Part shown: positions 9,273 to 17,569 of the stretch, in pieces
How positions within the stretch are numbered: position 1 is the stretch's first letter
Layout of the letters: each line of letters opens with the position of its first letter
Assembly: GCA_024330945.1 (NCBI GenBank)
Contig: JANDJJ010000003.1
Span: forward strand, 1 to 56,366
DNA: 56,366 nucleotides
DNA from: Nitrospira sp.
GTDB taxonomy: Bacteria; Nitrospirota; Nitrospiria; Nitrospirales; Nitrospiraceae
Reading direction: 5' to 3'
The notes under the pieces: generated by a model
Database searches by the model: none
What the model was told of the DNA's origin: nothing
The model's input: only the letters and a program-made list of their open reading frames with translations
Translations under genes and position numbers: made by a program

Positions 9273-10958
9273 CTATCGGATTTTGGCCCAGGCTTTCTGA
9301 TACTCCTCGAACGAATCGACTTCCGTCCATCCCTTGAAAATCGGGACGGCGTCGACCCGATGGCCGCGATCGATCAGTTCTTGAATCATGTCGGTGAACG
9401 AGGCCGTGGTCAGATCGGCGGCTTCGTGGAAGCCGATGGATCGGGCGGACTCTTGCGCCGACCGGTAACAGTCGCGAAGCGCTTGCGTCCCTTTTTCGGA
9501 AAACATGGCCATGCCGATGAATTCTCCGTGCGCCTCCTCCGAGGGCACGTGCCGACCGATCTTGACGACGCGATGCTCCCCTTCCGACATGATGAACCGA
9601 GAAAGATAGCTCTTGCCCGGCGGTTCGGCGAGGGAGACGAGGTCCGGATTCGGATGAGCGGCCTGAGTGTGGCGCTGATGCTGGTCGAACCAGGCCAAGT
9701 CCACCACGATGGAAATATCGGCGGGACTCTTCAGCAACTTCTCGAGAATGGCCGTGTCGAAGATGATGTCGCCGTAGAGGACGATGATCCGCCCCCTCAG
9801 CTCGTTTTCGGCGCAGAACAGAGAGAACAATTCGCCCGTCGTTTCGTACCGGTCGTTGTCGTAATAGCGGATATTGGGCAACGCGATGGCTTCTTTTTTG
9901 TATCCGCGCACGAGCGCGATGTCTTTGATGTTGCATTCGTTGAGCGCCGCCACCTGGCGGTCGAGAATCGTCTTGCCTTTGATGTCCAGCAAACACTTCG
10001 GCTTGTCTTCGATCAGCGGCAGCAACTGTTTTTCGAACCCCGCGGCGGCGATGATGGCGGTGATTTTTTCGCCGCCCACGGGCAGGAATTCCCGTTCATC
10101 CCGTTCCATTTGCGGGACTCCGACGATATCGTACACTTCCTGAAGCGGGACGATGATGTCGTTGGCGGCTCCGGGGCGGGTGTCTTGTTTGATGAGACGG
10201 AGCGCGTCCTGCATCGCGCGGATGGCGGCCCGCACCGGTTGGTTGGCGTAGATAATGATTTTGGCGCCCGCCTCCTCCATCTCCGCCGCGGTGGTCTGAT
10301 CGAAGATCGTGGGCACGACGACCAGGGGCACGCGGCCGGACCAGGCCCGATAGACGGCTCGCAGTTCGTCGAACTTTTTGGATTTCGAGTGAATGAGCAC
10401 CGCGTCGGCCCCCGCCTCGGCGTAGGCTTCCGCCCGCTTCAACGCCTCCGCCTGTCCCCACCCCGCGATCAACGCTTCCGTTCTCGCGATGATCACGAAG
10501 TCGGGAAATATCTGTGCCGCTTTCGCCGCCCTGATCTTGCTGCAATGCTCCTCGATGGGAATCAGCTCCCGGCGGACGCCCGCGTAGAAACTGCATCGTT
10601 TAGGGTAGACGTTGTCCTCGATGCAGATACCGGCGACGCCGGCCCGCTCGCGGTCGTTGACGGTGCGCATAACGTTCAGCGCGTTTCCATATCCAGTGTC
10701 GCAATCGGCGATGACGGGGATACTGACCGCCTCGACGATGTTGCGCTCAACGGCGAGCTGCTCGCTGGAATCGATGAAGCTGGCGTCCGGAATGCACTTC
10801 AGCGAGGCCGACACGGCGAACCCGCCGACCCAAACGCCGTCGAAGCCCGCGCGTTCAATGAGGCGGGCGCTCAGCGCGTCGTGAGCGCCGACGATTTTCA
10901 GGGCGCCGGGTCGTTTAAGGGCGGCTCGGAGCTTGGCGGCGTTGGTCATGGGCGCCAT
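9273..10958 (-). CDS. phosphoenolpyruvate mutase-like / nucleotidyltransferase fusion
   Basis: N-terminal ICL/PEP-mutase barrel (AKLRAALKRPGALKIVGAHDALSARLIERAGFDGVWVGGF...IEDNVYPKRCSF) plus C-terminal NTP-transferase (PLIEDKPKCLLDIKGKTILDRQ...YGDIIFD). Confidence 0.88.
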   Translation of the reverse strand: MAPMTNAAKLRAALKRPGALKIVGAHDALSARLIERAGFDGVWVGGFAVSASLKCIPDASFIDSSEQLAVERNIVEAVSIPVIADCDTGYGNALNVMRTVNDRERAGVAGICIEDNVYPKRCSFYAGVRRELIPIEEHCSKIRAAKAAQIFPDFVIIARTEALIAGWGQAEALKRAEAYAEAGADAVLIHSKSKKFDELRAVYRAWSGRVPLVVVPTIFDQTTAAEMEEAGAKIIIYANQPVRAAIRAMQDALRLIKQDTRPGAANDIIVPLQEVYDIVGVPQMERDEREFLPVGGEKITAIIAAAGFEKQLLPLIEDKPKCLLDIKGKTILDRQVAALNECNIKDIALVRGYKKEAIALPNIRYYDNDRYETTGELFSLFCAENELRGRIIVLYGDIIFDTAILEKLLKSPADISIVVDLAWFDQHQRHTQAAHPNPDLVSLAEPPGKSYLSRFIMSEGEHRVVKIGRHVPSEEAHGEFIGMAMFSEKGTQALRDCYRSAQESARSIGFHEAADLTTASFTDMIQELIDRGHRVDAVPIFKGWTEVDSFEEYQKAWAKIR

Positions 10959-11199: not shown

Positions 11200-11739
11200 T
11201 CACTCCGCCGAGTCAGTCAGGTCATCGTTGAATCGCGGCGCAAGGGATCGGCTGTCGATAAAAATGAAGCCGCGCTCCGTGCTGGCTTGGTAGGTGAGCG
11301 TGATTTCCGTGTCCGATCCTCGCCACGTGTATTGTTGATTGAGTCCGCGCGTCATCTGTCCGGGGATCCGTTGGAGAGGACCGTGCCGGGTTTCTAGGAA
11401 ATCCAGCACTTGCTTGTGGACCGACGCTCCCTGGTAGCGAATGGTCACCCGGGCGAATTGGTCGTCGAACGCCACGTACAGGATGCTCGTCATCTCGACG
11501 CCGGCGAACGTCGCCTCCCGATTTTTTGGCCGGTATTCCGTGATGTGGGCTCCGGATCGCAGCACTTCCAAGTCGTCCCGCGCCGCGAGCGGACTTCCCC
11601 ACGGAATGTCGTGAAAGCCCTTGGGGTCGTTCAGCATCGGAACGGCCCACGATACGTTCGCGGGGAGGACCAGACACAGGAAAAGCGATAAAAGTCCGAC
11701 ACCCCGTGATGGCGGGGCGGCGTCATTCATGGCGTTCAA
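11200..11739 (-). CDS. hypothetical secreted protein
   Basis: 179 aa with signal peptide-like N-terminus (GLLSLFLCLVLPANVSWA); no family recognised. Confidence 0.6.
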   Translation of the reverse strand: MNAMNDAAPPSRGVGLLSLFLCLVLPANVSWAVPMLNDPKGFHDIPWGSPLAARDDLEVLRSGAHITEYRPKNREATFAGVEMTSILYVAFDDQFARVTIRYQGASVHKQVLDFLETRHGPLQRIPGQMTRGLNQQYTWRGSDTEITLTYQASTERGFIFIDSRSLAPRFNDDLTDSAE

Positions 11740-11886: not shown

Positions 11887-11951
11887 GCGCCACTTCTCCG
11901 GATGCTTCGGCCGGCGGCTTCCCGACGGGAAGCGGAAACAAGGTGTCAGAC

Positions 11952-12449
11952 ATGATCGACGGCGACGAGTTTGTTCAGTCTCTCCAGGCGATGGGAGTGA
12001 ATTTTTTTACCGGGGTGCCCGATTCGATCCTGGGTGGCATCATCGCCGAGCTCATGAATCGCGGGTTGTACATTCCCGCGGTACGGGAGGACGAAGCGGT
12101 GGGTATGGCGGCCGGCGCCTACATGGCGGGCAAGATGCCGGCGGTGTTGATGCAGAATTCCGGGTTGGGAACGTCGCTCAATACGTTGATTTCACTCAAC
12201 ATGATTTATCGCCAGCCTTGCATTCTGATCGTGTCGTGGAGGGGCTATGGAGGAAAAGACGCGCCGGAGCATCTGATCATGGGCCAGGTCCTGCCGCAGT
12301 TTCTGGATACGATGACCATTCCGCATCGGACCTTGTCGGAAAAAACGGCGAAGGAAGACTTTGCCTGGGTGGCGGACATCTATCACAATAGACGGATTCC
12401 GGTGGCGCTCCTCATTACGAAGGGGGTCGTCAGGGGGCTTCATCCGTGA
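11952..12449 (+). CDS. phosphonopyruvate decarboxylase, alpha (TPP PYR-domain) subunit
   Basis: VNFFTGVPDSILGGII...AVREDEAVGMAAGAYMAGKMPAVLMQNSGLGTSLNTLISL is typical of Ppd/ComD. Confidence 0.85.
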   Translation: MIDGDEFVQSLQAMGVNFFTGVPDSILGGIIAELMNRGLYIPAVREDEAVGMAAGAYMAGKMPAVLMQNSGLGTSLNTLISLNMIYRQPCILIVSWRGYGGKDAPEHLIMGQVLPQFLDTMTIPHRTLSEKTAKEDFAWVADIYHNRRIPVALLITKGVVRGLHP

Positions 12450-12567
12450 GCAACCTTGCCGTCAGCAGTCTTGGAGGGGAAAACGTTGTTCGTTGAAATC
12501 GCAAGCCACCGCGGCCTTACTCCCGCCGCCCGGCGTGAGAGAGGTTGCCTATGACGAAGGGATCGGA

Positions 12568-13146
12568 ATGAAGCCGGAAGAAGGCACCTTGATCAGCCGT
12601 GCGCAGGCGATCGGGGCGTTGCTGGAACTGTTGACCGATCAGCCGGTCATCGTGTGCAACGGGTTTCCGTCGCGCGAGACGCAGAAAATCGCCGACCGCC
12701 CGACGCATTTTTACATGATCGGCTCGATGGGCAACGCCCCGGCCATCGCGCTGGGCGTTGCGTTGGCCAAGCCGGACAAGCAGGTCGTGACGTTCGACGG
12801 CGACGGCAACGTCCTCATGGGCATGGGGACCTTGGCGACGGTCGGAGCGCTGAAACCGAAAAATTTCATCCACGTGGTCTTTGACAACGAAGTGTACGGC
12901 ACGACCGGCAATCAACCGACGATCTCCAACGTCGTGCCGTTGGAGAAAGTGGCGAAAGCCGCCGGCTACGTCAACGCCGTGCGGGTGCTCGATCGCGAGG
13001 ATCTGGTCTATGAATTTCGGGAGTTGCTCAAAAAAGACGGCCCCAGCATGTTGCTGATCAAGGTCAACGAATTTCAGGAGGAGGCGGAGCGGATCGCGCT
13101 CGACCCTCCTGATCTGACGAAGCGGTTCATGAAAGCCATCGAATGA
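12568..13146 (+). CDS. phosphonopyruvate decarboxylase, beta (TPP PP-domain) subunit
   Basis: FYMIGSMGNAPAIALGVALAKPDKQVVTFDGDGNVLMGMGTLATVG...NEVYGTTGNQPT: TPP-binding GDG...N motif of Ppd/ComE. Confidence 0.88.
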   Translation: MKPEEGTLISRAQAIGALLELLTDQPVIVCNGFPSRETQKIADRPTHFYMIGSMGNAPAIALGVALAKPDKQVVTFDGDGNVLMGMGTLATVGALKPKNFIHVVFDNEVYGTTGNQPTISNVVPLEKVAKAAGYVNAVRVLDREDLVYEFRELLKKDGPSMLLIKVNEFQEEAERIALDPPDLTKRFMKAIE

Positions 13147-13227
13147 GTAAAAGGGAAGGTGCGAGAGACCGTACCGCCGAACGCGGGCGAGCGGTCGAGT
13201 CCTTCCCGCCGTAGGCTGCGAGGCGAG

Positions 13228-14310
13228 ATGATCCTTCTCAATCCCGGACCGGTGAACGTCAGTGAGCGCGTGCGGCAGGCGTTGCTGCGCCCCGATATCT
13301 GTCACCGCGAGTCGGAATTCACGGAATTGTTGCACCGCATTCAAGCCAAGCTGCTCGCGGCGTTCGTGCCGGGGGCGGAGTCGGACTACGTGGCGGTGGT
13401 CGTCACCGGGTCCGGGACGGCCGCCGTCGAAGCCGCGTTGATGTCGTCGTTGCCTCACGGCCGCCGCATCCTCATCATCAACAACGGCGTCTATGGGGAC
13501 CGTATGTCCCAGATCGTCGGACTTCATCGCTTGGGCGTGAGCGAGTTGAAGCATGACTGGACGGAGCGGCCGGATCCCGACAAATTGCTGCTGGCGCTGC
13601 GACAGCATCAGGAGGTCCATGCGGTCGCCATGGTCCATCACGAAACCACGACCGGCCTGATCAATCCGGTGCAGGAGATCGCCGAGATCGTCGATGGGCA
13701 GAACCGCGTCTTCGTGCTCGATGCCGTGAGCGCCTTGGCCGGAGAACCTCTCGATATCGCCAAGTCGCACATTTACATGGTGGTGGGCACGGCGGGGAAG
13801 TGCATTCAGGGATTCCCCGGCGTCTCGTTCGTGCTCGTGCGCAAGGGATTCGTCGAGCGGATGAGGTCGTATCCCAAGCGATCGTGGTATCTGCACCTGA
13901 CACACTATATCGACGACGAAGGGCGGGGCACGATTCCGTTCACGCCGGCGGTCCAGGTGTACTATGCCTTCGATGAAGCCTTGAGCGAGCTGTTGGAAGA
14001 GGGGGTGGCCAATCGGATTCGACGCTACAAGAAAATGGCGGCGGTCGTTCGCGAACGCATGGCCAAGCTGGGCGTCAAAGCGGTGCTCCCTCACGACCGT
14101 CAATCGAACACAATCACGGCGTATTATTTGCCCGAAGGCTTGTCCTATCGAACGCTGCACGATCGACTCAAGGCCGAAGGCTACGTCATCTACGCCGGTC
14201 AGGGCAATTTGGAAAACAGGATTTTCCGCGTGGCCAACATGGGGGCGCTGACCGAAGCGCAGGTGACGGGATTTCTCGACGCCTTCGAGCGCGTGTGCGG
14301 AACCGTATGA
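13228..14310 (+). CDS. 2-aminoethylphosphonate aminotransferase (class V PLP aminotransferase)
   Basis: MILLNPGPVNVSERVRQALLRPDICHRESEF...TGSGTAAVEAALMS...HHETTTGLINP...DAVSALAGEPLDI...GTAGKCIQGFPGVSFV. Confidence 0.85.
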   Translation: MILLNPGPVNVSERVRQALLRPDICHRESEFTELLHRIQAKLLAAFVPGAESDYVAVVVTGSGTAAVEAALMSSLPHGRRILIINNGVYGDRMSQIVGLHRLGVSELKHDWTERPDPDKLLLALRQHQEVHAVAMVHHETTTGLINPVQEIAEIVDGQNRVFVLDAVSALAGEPLDIAKSHIYMVVGTAGKCIQGFPGVSFVLVRKGFVERMRSYPKRSWYLHLTHYIDDEGRGTIPFTPAVQVYYAFDEALSELLEEGVANRIRRYKKMAAVVRERMAKLGVKAVLPHDRQSNTITAYYLPEGLSYRTLHDRLKAEGYVIYAGQGNLENRIFRVANMGALTEAQVTGFLDAFERVCGTV

Positions 14311-15026
14311 AAGCGGTCATCCTCGCGGCCGGCGTCGGGAAGCGGCTGTGGCCGGTCACTCAGCATCGTCCCAAGTGCCTGATCGAAATCGGGGGGCGGC
14401 CGCTGCTCCATCGTTATCTGGAGACGTTGGTGTGGCTCGGCATCAAACGGGCCGCCATCGTGGTGGGATACAAGCAGGAGATGATCCGTCAGGCAGTGGA
14501 GCAGGATGTCTCGGGGGTCGCGGTAAATTTTCTGGTCAATGAGGAATTCCATCGGGGCAGCATTTCTTCGCTCTGGATCGCCCGCGCGGCGCTTGACGAC
14601 GACGTAATCGTGATGGATGCCGACGTGCTCTTTCACCGCGATATTCTGAGGCGCCTCGTGGAGTCGCCCCACAAAAACGCCCTGCTGATGGACGAAACCG
14701 TCGTGCAGACGGGCGAAGAATGTATGGTGGCCGTGGCGGGCGGGCGTGTGATCGCTCTGTCGAAGCGGATGCCGGAGCGGTATGACTTTGCGGGGGAGGG
14801 CGTGGGATTTCTGCGGGTGCGGCACGCCGATACCCCTCATTTAATCGACTCGCTGCGGATGTTCGTCGATCAAGGGGCGTGGAACATGGAATATGAGGAC
14901 GCGTTGCTCCCTTTTTTTCAAACGGTCTCGGTTGGCTATGAACGGATTGGCGGATTGCCGTGGACGGAGATCGATTTCCCTGACGATGTGAGAAAAGCCG
15001 AATTGGACGTATTGCCGAAATTGTGA
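14307..15026 (+). CDS. nucleotidyltransferase (PntC/LicC-like)
   Basis: MKAVILAAGVGKRLWPVTQHRPKCLIEIGGRPLLHR canonical NTase signature; VMDADVLFH metal-binding Asp region. Confidence 0.85.
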   Translation: MKAVILAAGVGKRLWPVTQHRPKCLIEIGGRPLLHRYLETLVWLGIKRAAIVVGYKQEMIRQAVEQDVSGVAVNFLVNEEFHRGSISSLWIARAALDDDVIVMDADVLFHRDILRRLVESPHKNALLMDETVVQTGEECMVAVAGGRVIALSKRMPERYDFAGEGVGFLRVRHADTPHLIDSLRMFVDQGAWNMEYEDALLPFFQTVSVGYERIGGLPWTEIDFPDDVRKAELDVLPKL

Positions 15027-15042
15027 GAGAGTCAACGAAGTC

Positions 15043-15087
15043 CATGCTGAGAGCAGGCATGCTGAGAGCAGGCATGCCGAGGGCAGG
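15043..15087. repeat. three tandem copies of a 15-bp repeat
   Basis: CATGCTGAGAGCAGG, CATGCTGAGAGCAGG, CATGCCGAGGGCAGG between two phosphonate-cluster genes. Confidence 0.9.
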
Positions 15088-15108
15088 ATTGAGTCGCACG
15101 GCGTTGAA

Positions 15109-16545
15109 ATGAACGAGAGCCTTGTACGGAAGCGGGTTGGGATCCAAGGATTGACGACGGCGATTCTGTTACCGTCGGTCGACTTGTTCGGTGATTCGAT
15201 CGGACGGCGGAGGGAAGGAGTCGGGCCGCTGACGAACGTGGTGGGAATCGGCCTGTTTCAGCGCGCGGTCCTTACGTTGCAGCGGGGGGGGATCCGCCAA
15301 TTGATCGTGTTGACCGGTCCCGAGGAAGAACGGCTCAAACAATCCTTGTCGAGTGGGCCGCGGGTGACGATCCCTGTACGGTGGATGCCGGTCCGGGAAT
15401 TTCCGCTTGACGATCCGAGGACGTGGGAGTTTTTGGGGGCTGAGGTGGGCGATTGCGCTCTTGTCTTGAGTGCAAACGCGGTCTTTTCGCGAGGTTTGAT
15501 CGAGCATCTCAGGAAAGAGGCGCGAGACGGCGAGGCGATGGTCGTGGCGCAAGCGACGTCGCGATCGTCCACGGTGGCGGCCAAGGGAAGGGTCCGGCTA
15601 AAAACCTGCGCCGAGCGATTGACGTCGTTTGCTCCCGCACATTTTGATAATGCGGCCCCCCCGGCAGCCGAAATGGCGGTCTTGCCGGCCGGTCTAATGA
15701 GCGCCGCGCGGGATGCCGGCACGGAGAACGGTCGGCTGCCGATCCGCCGTTGGCTGGAACGGGCGGCGGTCGAGGGGCGCGTGCGTGTCGTAGAGACGGC
15801 CGAGACCCGCGGCATATGGTATCAGGAGGTCAGAACCCCCGATGATCTGCCGATCGCGGAAAAGAAGCTGTTCCGTTCCCTGAGAAGTGATACGGAGGGG
15901 TTCGTCGATCGGTATTTCAACCGCAAGGTTTCCCGTTGGTTCACGCGCCTGTTTCTCGCCGCGGGACTGTCCCCCAATGCCATTACGGTCGTGGCCTCTC
16001 TGATCGGCTTTACGGCCGCGGCGGGATTTTCCATGGGAACCTATGGGGCGGGAGTCGCCGCGGCGCTGGTGTTCCAGTTGGCGGCTGTCATTGATTGCTG
16101 CGACGGCGAAGTGGCGCGACTGACGTTTGCCGAATCGTCGTTCGGCGCCTGGCTGGACCTCTTTATGGACAATCTTGTGCACATGGCCATTTTTGCAGGC
16201 ATCGCGATTGGCCTCTATACGGCACAGATGGGACAGCCGTGGGCGTGGGGCATGTTGGCGCTCGGCGCAACGGCCGTGCTGGGGAACGGGTTGTCGTTTT
16301 TACTGGTGGAGCGAGCGCAGAAAATCAAGGCTGCGAACCTGTGGAAGACGCCGTCGGATGCGGCATGGGCGGATTTCATGCTCAAAAACGTCGCCAGTCG
16401 GGATTTTTCGGTGACGCTCGTGCTGTTTGCGCTGTTCGCCAAGTTGGAATGGTTTCTTGGGTTTGCGGCGATCGGTTCCTTCCTCTTCGCCGGTGTCATG
16501 GTGTGGGTCGTTCGCCCGTCGGCCGTGACCTCGACCGACGTCTGA
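15109..16545 (+). CDS. NTase-like domain fused to CDP-alcohol phosphatidyltransferase
   Basis: C-terminal DCCDGEVARLTFAESSFGAWLDLFMD fits Dx2DGx2ARx8Gx3Dx3D exactly; N-terminal about 260 aa resembles a degenerate nucleotidyltransferase (NVVGIGLFQRAVLTLQRGGIRQLIVLTG). Confidence 0.85.
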   Translation: MNESLVRKRVGIQGLTTAILLPSVDLFGDSIGRRREGVGPLTNVVGIGLFQRAVLTLQRGGIRQLIVLTGPEEERLKQSLSSGPRVTIPVRWMPVREFPLDDPRTWEFLGAEVGDCALVLSANAVFSRGLIEHLRKEARDGEAMVVAQATSRSSTVAAKGRVRLKTCAERLTSFAPAHFDNAAPPAAEMAVLPAGLMSAARDAGTENGRLPIRRWLERAAVEGRVRVVETAETRGIWYQEVRTPDDLPIAEKKLFRSLRSDTEGFVDRYFNRKVSRWFTRLFLAAGLSPNAITVVASLIGFTAAAGFSMGTYGAGVAAALVFQLAAVIDCCDGEVARLTFAESSFGAWLDLFMDNLVHMAIFAGIAIGLYTAQMGQPWAWGMLALGATAVLGNGLSFLLVERAQKIKAANLWKTPSDAAWADFMLKNVASRDFSVTLVLFALFAKLEWFLGFAAIGSFLFAGVMVWVVRPSAVTSTDV

Positions 16546-16558
16546 GGGTGAGCCGCGC

Positions 16559-17569
16559 GTGCTTCGCTACTTCTTACTGGCGCTCGGTCTTACCGTCCTC
16601 GGTTTTCTCATTTGGCACATCGGTCCCTTGAATATTTACGAGGCGGTTACCAAGCTCGGTCCCTCTGCCCTCGCGGTCATCCTCCTTCCCTCTTTCATTA
16701 TGTACACGGTCGAGGCCTACGGATGGAGAGTCGTGCTGGGGCCGGCCGGGCAAGCGGTGCCGTTTTGGCGGCTGTTGGCGATCAGAACGGCCGGAGAAGT
16801 CGTGAACATGACGACGCCGACGGCCTATTTGGGCGGCGAGCCGATCAAGGCCTATCTCCTCAACAAATACAACGTGCCGGTGGCGGAGGGAGCCGCTTCC
16901 GTGGTGATCGCCAAGACGACCATGACGATCGCCGAGGTCTGCTACATTTTAACGGGCATCGCGCTTGGGTTCCTGCTGCTGGGCGCGGGAGATTCGGCCG
17001 GCTATACGGTGACGGCGGCGTTGCTGAGTGTTGGCGTGCTGATCTGTTCGATCGCCGGGTTCGTTTTCGTGCAGCGCCGCGGCCTCTTTGCGTCGATTTT
17101 GGGGGTCGCCAGAGCGTTGCGAGTGCGAAACGCGTTTCTGGAGTCGCAGGAAGAACACCTGCGCTCGATCGACCGGACCATTCTGCATTTCTACCGCCAT
17201 CACCAACGGGTGTTCTATGTCTCGATCGGCGTGTATTTTTTCGGTTGGATGGCTGAATCGTTGGAAGTTCTGGTCATTCTGCACTATTTGGGCGGTCCGA
17301 CTGCCATCTTGTCGGCGTTTTCCATCGGCGCGCTCGCCGTCTTCATCAAAGGTGGGTCTTTTTTTATCCCCGGAAGCTTGGGCGCCCAGGACGGAGGAAA
17401 CGTGCTGTTGCTGAAGGCGTTCGGCTACAGTGAGGTGACCGGCTTGACCTTCGCGCTGTTGCGGCGATTCCGCGAGTTGGTTTGGATCGGCATCGGCCTG
17501 CTCTGCCTGGCGGTCATGGGAAAGAAAAAAGTCTACGGAGAAGAAGGGAACGTGGGGTTCCCCGGATAA
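16559..17569 (+). CDS. lysylphosphatidylglycerol synthase TM-domain / flippase-like membrane protein
   Basis: 336 aa polytopic; VEAYGWRVVLGP...RTAGEVVNMTTPTAYLGGEPIKAYLL...GSFFIPGSLGAQDGGNVLLL typical of the LPG_synthase_TM/UPF0104 family. Confidence 0.85.
   Translation: MLRYFLLALGLTVLGFLIWHIGPLNIYEAVTKLGPSALAVILLPSFIMYTVEAYGWRVVLGPAGQAVPFWRLLAIRTAGEVVNMTTPTAYLGGEPIKAYLLNKYNVPVAEGAASVVIAKTTMTIAEVCYILTGIALGFLLLGAGDSAGYTVTAALLSVGVLICSIAGFVFVQRRGLFASILGVARALRVRNAFLESQEEHLRSIDRTILHFYRHHQRVFYVSIGVYFFGWMAESLEVLVILHYLGGPTAILSAFSIGALAVFIKGGSFFIPGSLGAQDGGNVLLLKAFGYSEVTGLTFALLRRFRELVWIGIGLLCLAVMGKKKVYGEEGNVGFPG

Follow-up and report, generated by a model that had tools for sequence, protein, structure and literature searches.

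PEP mutase (PepM) makes carbon-phosphorus bonds, and PepM is used as the marker gene for phosphonate synthesis. Nitrospira are major nitrite oxidisers. Canonical PepM/Ppm (EC 5.4.2.9) is represented by the structures from Mytilus (1pym) and Streptomyces (5unc) and carries the loop motif EDKx5NS. In the Mytilus site, Asp85 ligates the metal, Asp58, Asp87 and Glu114 act through water, and Arg159 and His190, possibly with Asn122 and Ser123, lie at the phosphonyl group (PMC7916636). Phosphonopyruvate hydrolase (PPH; Variovorax Pal2, 2dua) belongs to the same superfamily and has the same pocket. An Asn-to-Thr exchange at position 122 is usually given as the cause of the PPH outcome, although the review itself doubts this (PMC7916636). 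In addition, canonical PepM fused to a C-terminal MobA-like nucleotidyltransferase (NTase) of the PF12804 family and linked to phosphonopyruvate decarboxylase (Ppd), 2-aminoethylphosphonate transaminase (AEPT) and a second NTase has been described (Rice et al. 2019, PMC6697681). That survey required a perfect EDKx5NS match and excluded 26,231 sequences without it, 22 of which were fused to other domains (PMC6697681). In the same way, a 2025 actinomycete screen defined PepM by a perfect EDKx5NS match (PMC12723261). No relevant description of an EDNx5CS PepM, of motif exceptions or of phosphonate biosynthesis in Nitrospira was found in the literature searched, whose coverage was partial.

The stretch of Nitrospira DNA analysed here (the window, 56,366 nucleotides) encodes a fusion with the same C-terminal MobA-like NTase and the same linkage to Ppd, AEPT and a second NTase. 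The features concerned are the following.

9273 to 10958, minus strand: PepM-NTase fusion open reading frame of 561 aa (translation and family searches)
10101 to 10958, minus strand: PEP mutase/ICL-superfamily domain, residues 1-286 (PF13714; best NCBIfam match TIGR02320 PEP_mutase)
10590 to 10619, minus strand: active-site loop EDNVYPKRCS, residues 114-123, N116 and C122 replacing K116 and N122 (translation; alignment to PDB PepM, PPH and lyases)
9276 to 10064, minus strand: fused MobA-like NTP transferase domain, residues 299-561 (PF12804)
11200 to 11739, minus strand: small secreted or lipoprotein-like protein, function not assigned by family, in conserved synteny between pepM and ppd
11943 to 12449, plus strand: Ppd alpha subunit, PpdA (TIGR03297 130 bits, TIGR03845 114 bits; PF02776)
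12568 to 13146, plus strand: Ppd beta subunit, PpdB (TIGR03297 171 bits, TIGR03846 185 bits)
13228 to 14310, plus strand: AEPT (TIGR03301 PhnW-AepZ 348 bits, cut-off 361)
14307 to 15026, plus strand: second, stand-alone NTase, PntC-like (NTase2; PF00483/PF12804)
15109 to 16545, plus strand: CDP-alcohol phosphatidyltransferase with an NTase-like N-terminal region (PF01066; NF041135)
16559 to 17569, plus strand: flippase-like membrane protein (PF03706 LPG_synthase_TM; HpnL-like)

The translation of the fusion holds IEDNVYPKRCSFYAG (loop context GVAGICIEDNVYPKRCSFYAGVRRE), and a degenerate 29-base DNA pattern matches the window at 10591-10619. The first-pass annotation had read the loop as EDNVYPKRCS, with the mutase Lys exchanged for Asn, the Asn for Cys and the Ser kept. 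The loop is encoded by precisely bases 10590-10619 of the minus strand, and alignment with PDB PepM, PPH and lyases gives N116, C122 and S123, so that both the EDKx5NS motif and Asn122 are absent from the window protein. The register is secure because the residue numbers of the fusion protein coincide with those of Mytilus PepM (D58, D85, D87, E114, K120, R159, H190), which settles the doubt that the motif register might be wrong. Position 122 is Cys in the Nitrospira protein and in lyases, Asn in PepM and Thr in PPH. The NTase fusion and the Ppd and AEPT neighbours, also pointed out beforehand, were recovered as a PF12804 domain, adjoining Ppd alpha and beta subunits and an AEP transaminase. 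In the fused NTase the GxGxR region is degenerate, and PKCLLDI and YGD are retained.

The N-terminal domain very probably works as a PEP mutase that converts PEP to phosphonopyruvate, one of a second type that branches deeply, may be ancestral and has EDNx5CS, not EDKx5NS, as its loop. This prediction is based on the motif, its register, the mutase-type pocket outside the loop, the tree position, the gene linkage and the interchange with canonical PepM. Against a mutase stand the identity of Cys122 with the catalytic Cys of lyases, a score below the TIGR02320 cut-off and a position outside the canonical clade. Surveys based on EDKx5NS would count the EDNx5CS lineage, present in Nitrospira and several phyla, as lyase or miss it entirely. 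The lineage also offers a natural test of the role of the loop, since a mutase pocket is combined with the lyases' catalytic Cys at 122.

Mutase-type residues in the window protein are W43, D58, D85, D87, E114, K120, S123, R159, E161, H190, S191 and N239, which include the Mg2+ and substrate residues of canonical PepM (D58, D85, D87, E114, R159, H190, S123, K120, W43). At the sites of W43, E161, H190 and N239, the lyases read carry F/Y, D, E and L/V, respectively. Unlike canonical PepM, the window protein displays EDNx5CS, F47, R130, Y276 and Thr160, and Nitrospirales EDNx5CS members contain a Lys-Cys insert before Pro57-Asp58. Positions specific to the EDNx5CS group are F47, N116, C122, R130, Y276 and V279; compared with canonical PepM, only T99, C122 and T160 are common to this group and the lyases. 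The idea that the inserted Lys replaces Lys116 was rejected as a general explanation because five loci read outside Nitrospirota (L113, L114, L115, L236, L237) have no Lys at this place and L235 has Gln.

An AlphaFold2 model of the PepM domain (pLDDT 92.4) has the fold of canonical PepM (TM 0.93-0.94), with its Mg-site and phosphonyl-site residues. Its best PDB structural match is PepM 5unc (TM 0.94), also the best PDB sequence match (E=2.6e-79); other structural matches are Mytilus PepM and PPH at TM 0.84-0.93 and lyases at 0.85-0.89. With TIGR02320 (PEP_mutase) the domain scores 266 bits, under the equivalog cut-off of 319.55, and other EDNx5CS members 258-298 bits. This cut-off is a weak discriminator and was dropped, since two proteins with the canonical motif (L116 and L133) also fall below it, at 309 bits. 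CPEP phosphonomutase (TIGR02319) is far from reached, at 144 bits against a cut-off of 420.

Lyase activity, or another C-C reaction like those of methylisocitrate and isocitrate lyases, with Cys122 as general acid, would fit the lyase-like KRC of the loop and the sharing of Cys122 and Thr160 with lyases. 2-Methylisocitrate lyase PrpB, petal death protein and dimethylmalate lyase have KRC in the loop and Thr160. Unlike the window protein, these enzymes read EDQ..CGH, with Glu190, Asp161 and no Trp43, and form a separate clade (100/100). KRCGH-type loops had been attributed to lyase relatives, and K[KR]CGH was indeed present in every stand-alone lyase homologue read in these genomes. In the window protein, by contrast, Cys122 is followed by Ser-Phe (KRCSF) where lyases have Gly-His, Asp161 is replaced by Glu and Glu190 by His, and none of the lyase markers Gly123, His124, Asp161 and Glu190 was found in the alignment. 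Given also a TIGR02317 (PrpB) score of 197 bits against a cut-off of 354 and an operon context of phosphonate synthesis, a lyase is extremely unlikely.

The main trees were built with the loop columns removed and with lyases as outgroup. The split between lyases and mutases put all EDNx5CS sequences with the mutases (100/100), and canonical PepM and PPH formed a clade excluding them (100/99). PPH was monophyletic and nested in the canonical EDKx5NS clade, away from the EDNx5CS group (100/99); the window protein lies neither in the EDKx5NS (plus PPH) clade nor in the PPH clade. When lyases were omitted, EDNx5CS sequences were cleanly split from all others (100/99), and a tree with the loop columns kept agreed with the loop-removed trees. 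The first-pass annotation had called the loop intermediate between subfamilies and proposed a phylogeny, with firm placement inside the lyase or hydrolase clades as the outcome against a mutase. No such placement occurred, and the intermediate character was borne out by branching between the lyases and the clade of canonical PepM and PPH, even with the loop columns removed.

If the protein were a phosphonopyruvate hydrolase, or a mutase that leaks to hydrolysis, Cys122 would allow the metaphosphate/enolate intermediate to be caught by water or a proton, as is thought for Thr118 of PPH. Asn122, to which the PPH outcome is attributed, is indeed replaced (PMC7916636), and PPH, also non-Asn at position 122, shares F47 and, in two of three cases, Thr160. 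TIGR02321 (PPH) is moreover the second-best family, but its 250 bits are far under the cut-off of 374.4, and N116/C122 stand where PPH has EDKx5TS (Thr118). PPH is also catabolic, has no NTase fusion and nests in the canonical clade, far from the EDNx5CS group, and in genomes that lack another PepM, Ppd, AEPT and the NTases would have no substrate if the enzyme were purely a hydrolase. This alternative is thus very unlikely.

With lyases included, the mutase side is rooted among the EDNx5CS sequences. The lyase outgroup branch is long, and the choice between sister lineage and grade is not pressed. The EDNx5CS sequences are either a sister lineage or an ancestral (basal) grade of mutases, because their monophyly was not rejected with 17 members (AU p = 0.248) and was rejected with 23 (0.021). 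The EDNx5CS type may be a step between lyases and mutases. It is conceivable, at somewhat less than even chance, that it is the ancestral PEP mutase grade, in which carbon-phosphorus chemistry would have come from a lyase-like ancestor with a catalytic Cys, and from within which EDKx5NS and later the Thr of PPH would have arisen. On present sequences, EDNx5CS PepM is a separate, deep and conserved branch that differs from canonical PepM by motif and by clade, and the most fitting description is a deep-branching new PEP mutase variant.

EDNx5CS was found in 52 distinct sequences. A DNA-pattern search showed that the motif is encoded in 42/396 Nitrospirota genomes and in 2/396 genomes in each of two further phyla. 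The reversed pattern gave no match in the same genome sets, and these counts together with the 52 distinct sequences indicate that the motif is not due to chance. It is conserved in Nitrospirota and sporadic in Acidobacteriota, Myxococcota, Nitrospinota and Proteobacteria MAGs. Carriers include Nitrospira MAGs, a Nitrospinota MAG (L111), an Acidobacteria MAG (L114), a Proteobacteria MAG (L113) and a Deltaproteobacteria MAG placed in Myxococcota by the taxonomy tool (L115). Within the order, EDNV[YF]PKRCSFYAG orthologues occur in 22 of 60 genomes, the window's own counted, and in four family groups; those of the 21/59 other genomes searched are 59-98% identical to the window fusion. Among all homologues read, the states at 116 / 122-123 were K/NS in 82, N/CS in 52 and Q/CG in 22 (lyases), with K/TS in three (PPH) and T/NS in one, and N/NS or K/CS hybrids were never found.

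Purifying selection acts strongly on both domains (dN/dS 0.02-0.16, with dS saturated in most pairs; 0.044 in the unsaturated pair L029-L030). This selection and the perfect pairing of positions 116 and 122 rule out an independent degeneration of single PepMs. A PepM domain that has lost mutase activity while the fused NTase was kept, phosphonopyruvate coming from elsewhere or not being made, would explain the two departures from the reference signature. It is nevertheless highly improbable, as constraint is equally strong on the PepM and NTase domains, the loop sequence is the same across families and no other mutase candidate was found in these genomes. That these genomes hide a canonical PepM as well was ruled out, the loops read in stand-alone homologues all being K[KR]CGH.

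The two PepM types replace each other across the order. The EDNx5CS fusion was found in 22 of the 60 genomes, a canonical-type fusion in 33 and neither in 5; none has both, against 12.1 expected under independence (P ~6e-12, relatedness ignored). The canonical loop reads EDKx5NS in 32 of 33, the exception (G029) being a fragmentary gene. Meanwhile PpdB and the CDP-alcohol transferase each have matches in 56/60 genomes irrespective of PepM type, and Ppd, AEPT, NTase2 and the transferase are orthologous with either type (between members of the genus, PpdB identity is 82-96%). At L051 the canonical gene stands alone, inserted among housekeeping genes. On a concatenated PpdA-PpdB-AEPT-NTase2-CDP-alcohol transferase tree, at least six changes of PepM type are needed by a parsimony count that includes transfers, and all six are forced by branches with SH-aLRT of at least 95. 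In genome G007, canonical PepM lies on another contig (L058), and an EDNx5CS pseudogene with a frameshift, an in-frame stop, a large internal deletion and an eroded loop occupies the syntenic place (L091:3934-4447). This is, as read from the two loci, a natural replacement of EDNx5CS by canonical PepM. Such a recurrent swap of two mutases before an unchanged pathway would be hard to explain unless both make phosphonopyruvate.

Gene linkage points the same way as far as the broad PEP mutase family is concerned, with both co-occurrence and linkage with Ppd and AEPT. In the five loci read outside Nitrospirota, EDNx5CS PepM-NTase is directly followed by PpdA and PpdB on the same strand, and in L114, L115 and L237 AEPT and then a second NTase come after PpdB; canonical L116 has the same gene order. 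The layout in the genus is divergent: one strand carries PepM-NTase and the small secreted protein, and the opposite strand PpdA, PpdB, AEPT, NTase2, the CDP-alcohol transferase and the flippase-like protein. For Nitrospirota families f2-f4, where the EDNx5CS gene does not adjoin Ppd, linkage is by co-occurrence only.

The downstream enzymes could also be sulfonate enzymes (sulfopyruvate decarboxylase, taurine-like product), the PepM homologue making a non-phosphonate precursor, and PpdB does score slightly higher as sulfopyruvate decarboxylase beta (185) than as Ppd (171). The transaminase is however of PhnW/AepZ type, and the same orthologues occur with canonical EDKx5NS PepM, the PpdB of the shared cluster being the sole match, within the only detected Ppd pair, in 23 canonical-type genomes. 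This reading is barely credible. A catabolic cluster was ruled out as well: PhnJ is absent from the genome by profile search and phosphonatase has only sub-threshold matches. The conservation of the pathway with either type, their mutual exclusion and the pairing with Ppd in other phyla thus strongly favour, on genomic grounds, the earlier suggestion of a motif-divergent PepM missed by motif-based screens over that of different chemistry.

We infer PEP mutase catalysis, a Cys122 in the phosphonyl-facing role of Asn122 and the end product as follows. PEP would bind Mg2+ in the usual pocket and the loop would close with K120, S123 and F124, Cys122 sitting at the Asn122 position and facing the phosphonyl group. 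A metaphosphate-like transfer from O to C would then yield phosphonopyruvate. Cys122 is probably not a general acid in EDNx5CS enzymes, as the His124 and Glu190 of lyases are missing; some leak to hydrolysis is possible. The split decarboxylase PpdA/PpdB would receive phosphonopyruvate and pull the unfavourable equilibrium, AEPT would make 2-aminoethylphosphonate (AEP), and one or both NTases would activate it to CMP-AEP. Finally, the CDP-alcohol transferase and the flippase-like protein may place AEP on a lipid or surface polymer, a transferase placing activated AEP on an acceptor having been proposed for Pnt pathways (PMC6697681).

The genes at 11943-17569 make up a near-complete AEP to CMP-AEP to acceptor cluster, conserved in almost all Nitrospirales genomes sampled. 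It resembles a pathway for a phosphonolipid or a surface phosphonate that is characteristic of the order. Two different NTases are present (14307-15026, stand-alone; 9276-10064, fused), the fused one being without the GxGxR signature, and the N-terminal NTase region of the CDP-alcohol transferase is degenerate. The signal-peptide protein at 11200-11739 had no family match in Pfam and NCBIfam profile searches and occurs as tandem duplicates in relatives (L025, L026, L027, L242). Another locus (L098, G012:C1:1222000-1232000) contains, about 20 kb from the intact cluster, a decayed second AEPT-NTase2-CDP-alcohol transferase-flippase cluster with stops and frameshifts. A 113-residue EDNx5CS-type pepM fragment (L238, G063:C168), 62% identical over residues 3-111, adjoins the gene for the small secreted protein; it comes from the Nitrospinota MAG in which an intact copy is present as well (L111). 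A further departure from EDKx5NS was observed on the Mesorhizobium plasmid MesoLj131c2 (L186), where a gene annotated aepX, with the loop EDTAFPKMNS, adjoins an aminotransferase and a phosphocholine cytidylyltransferase-family gene.
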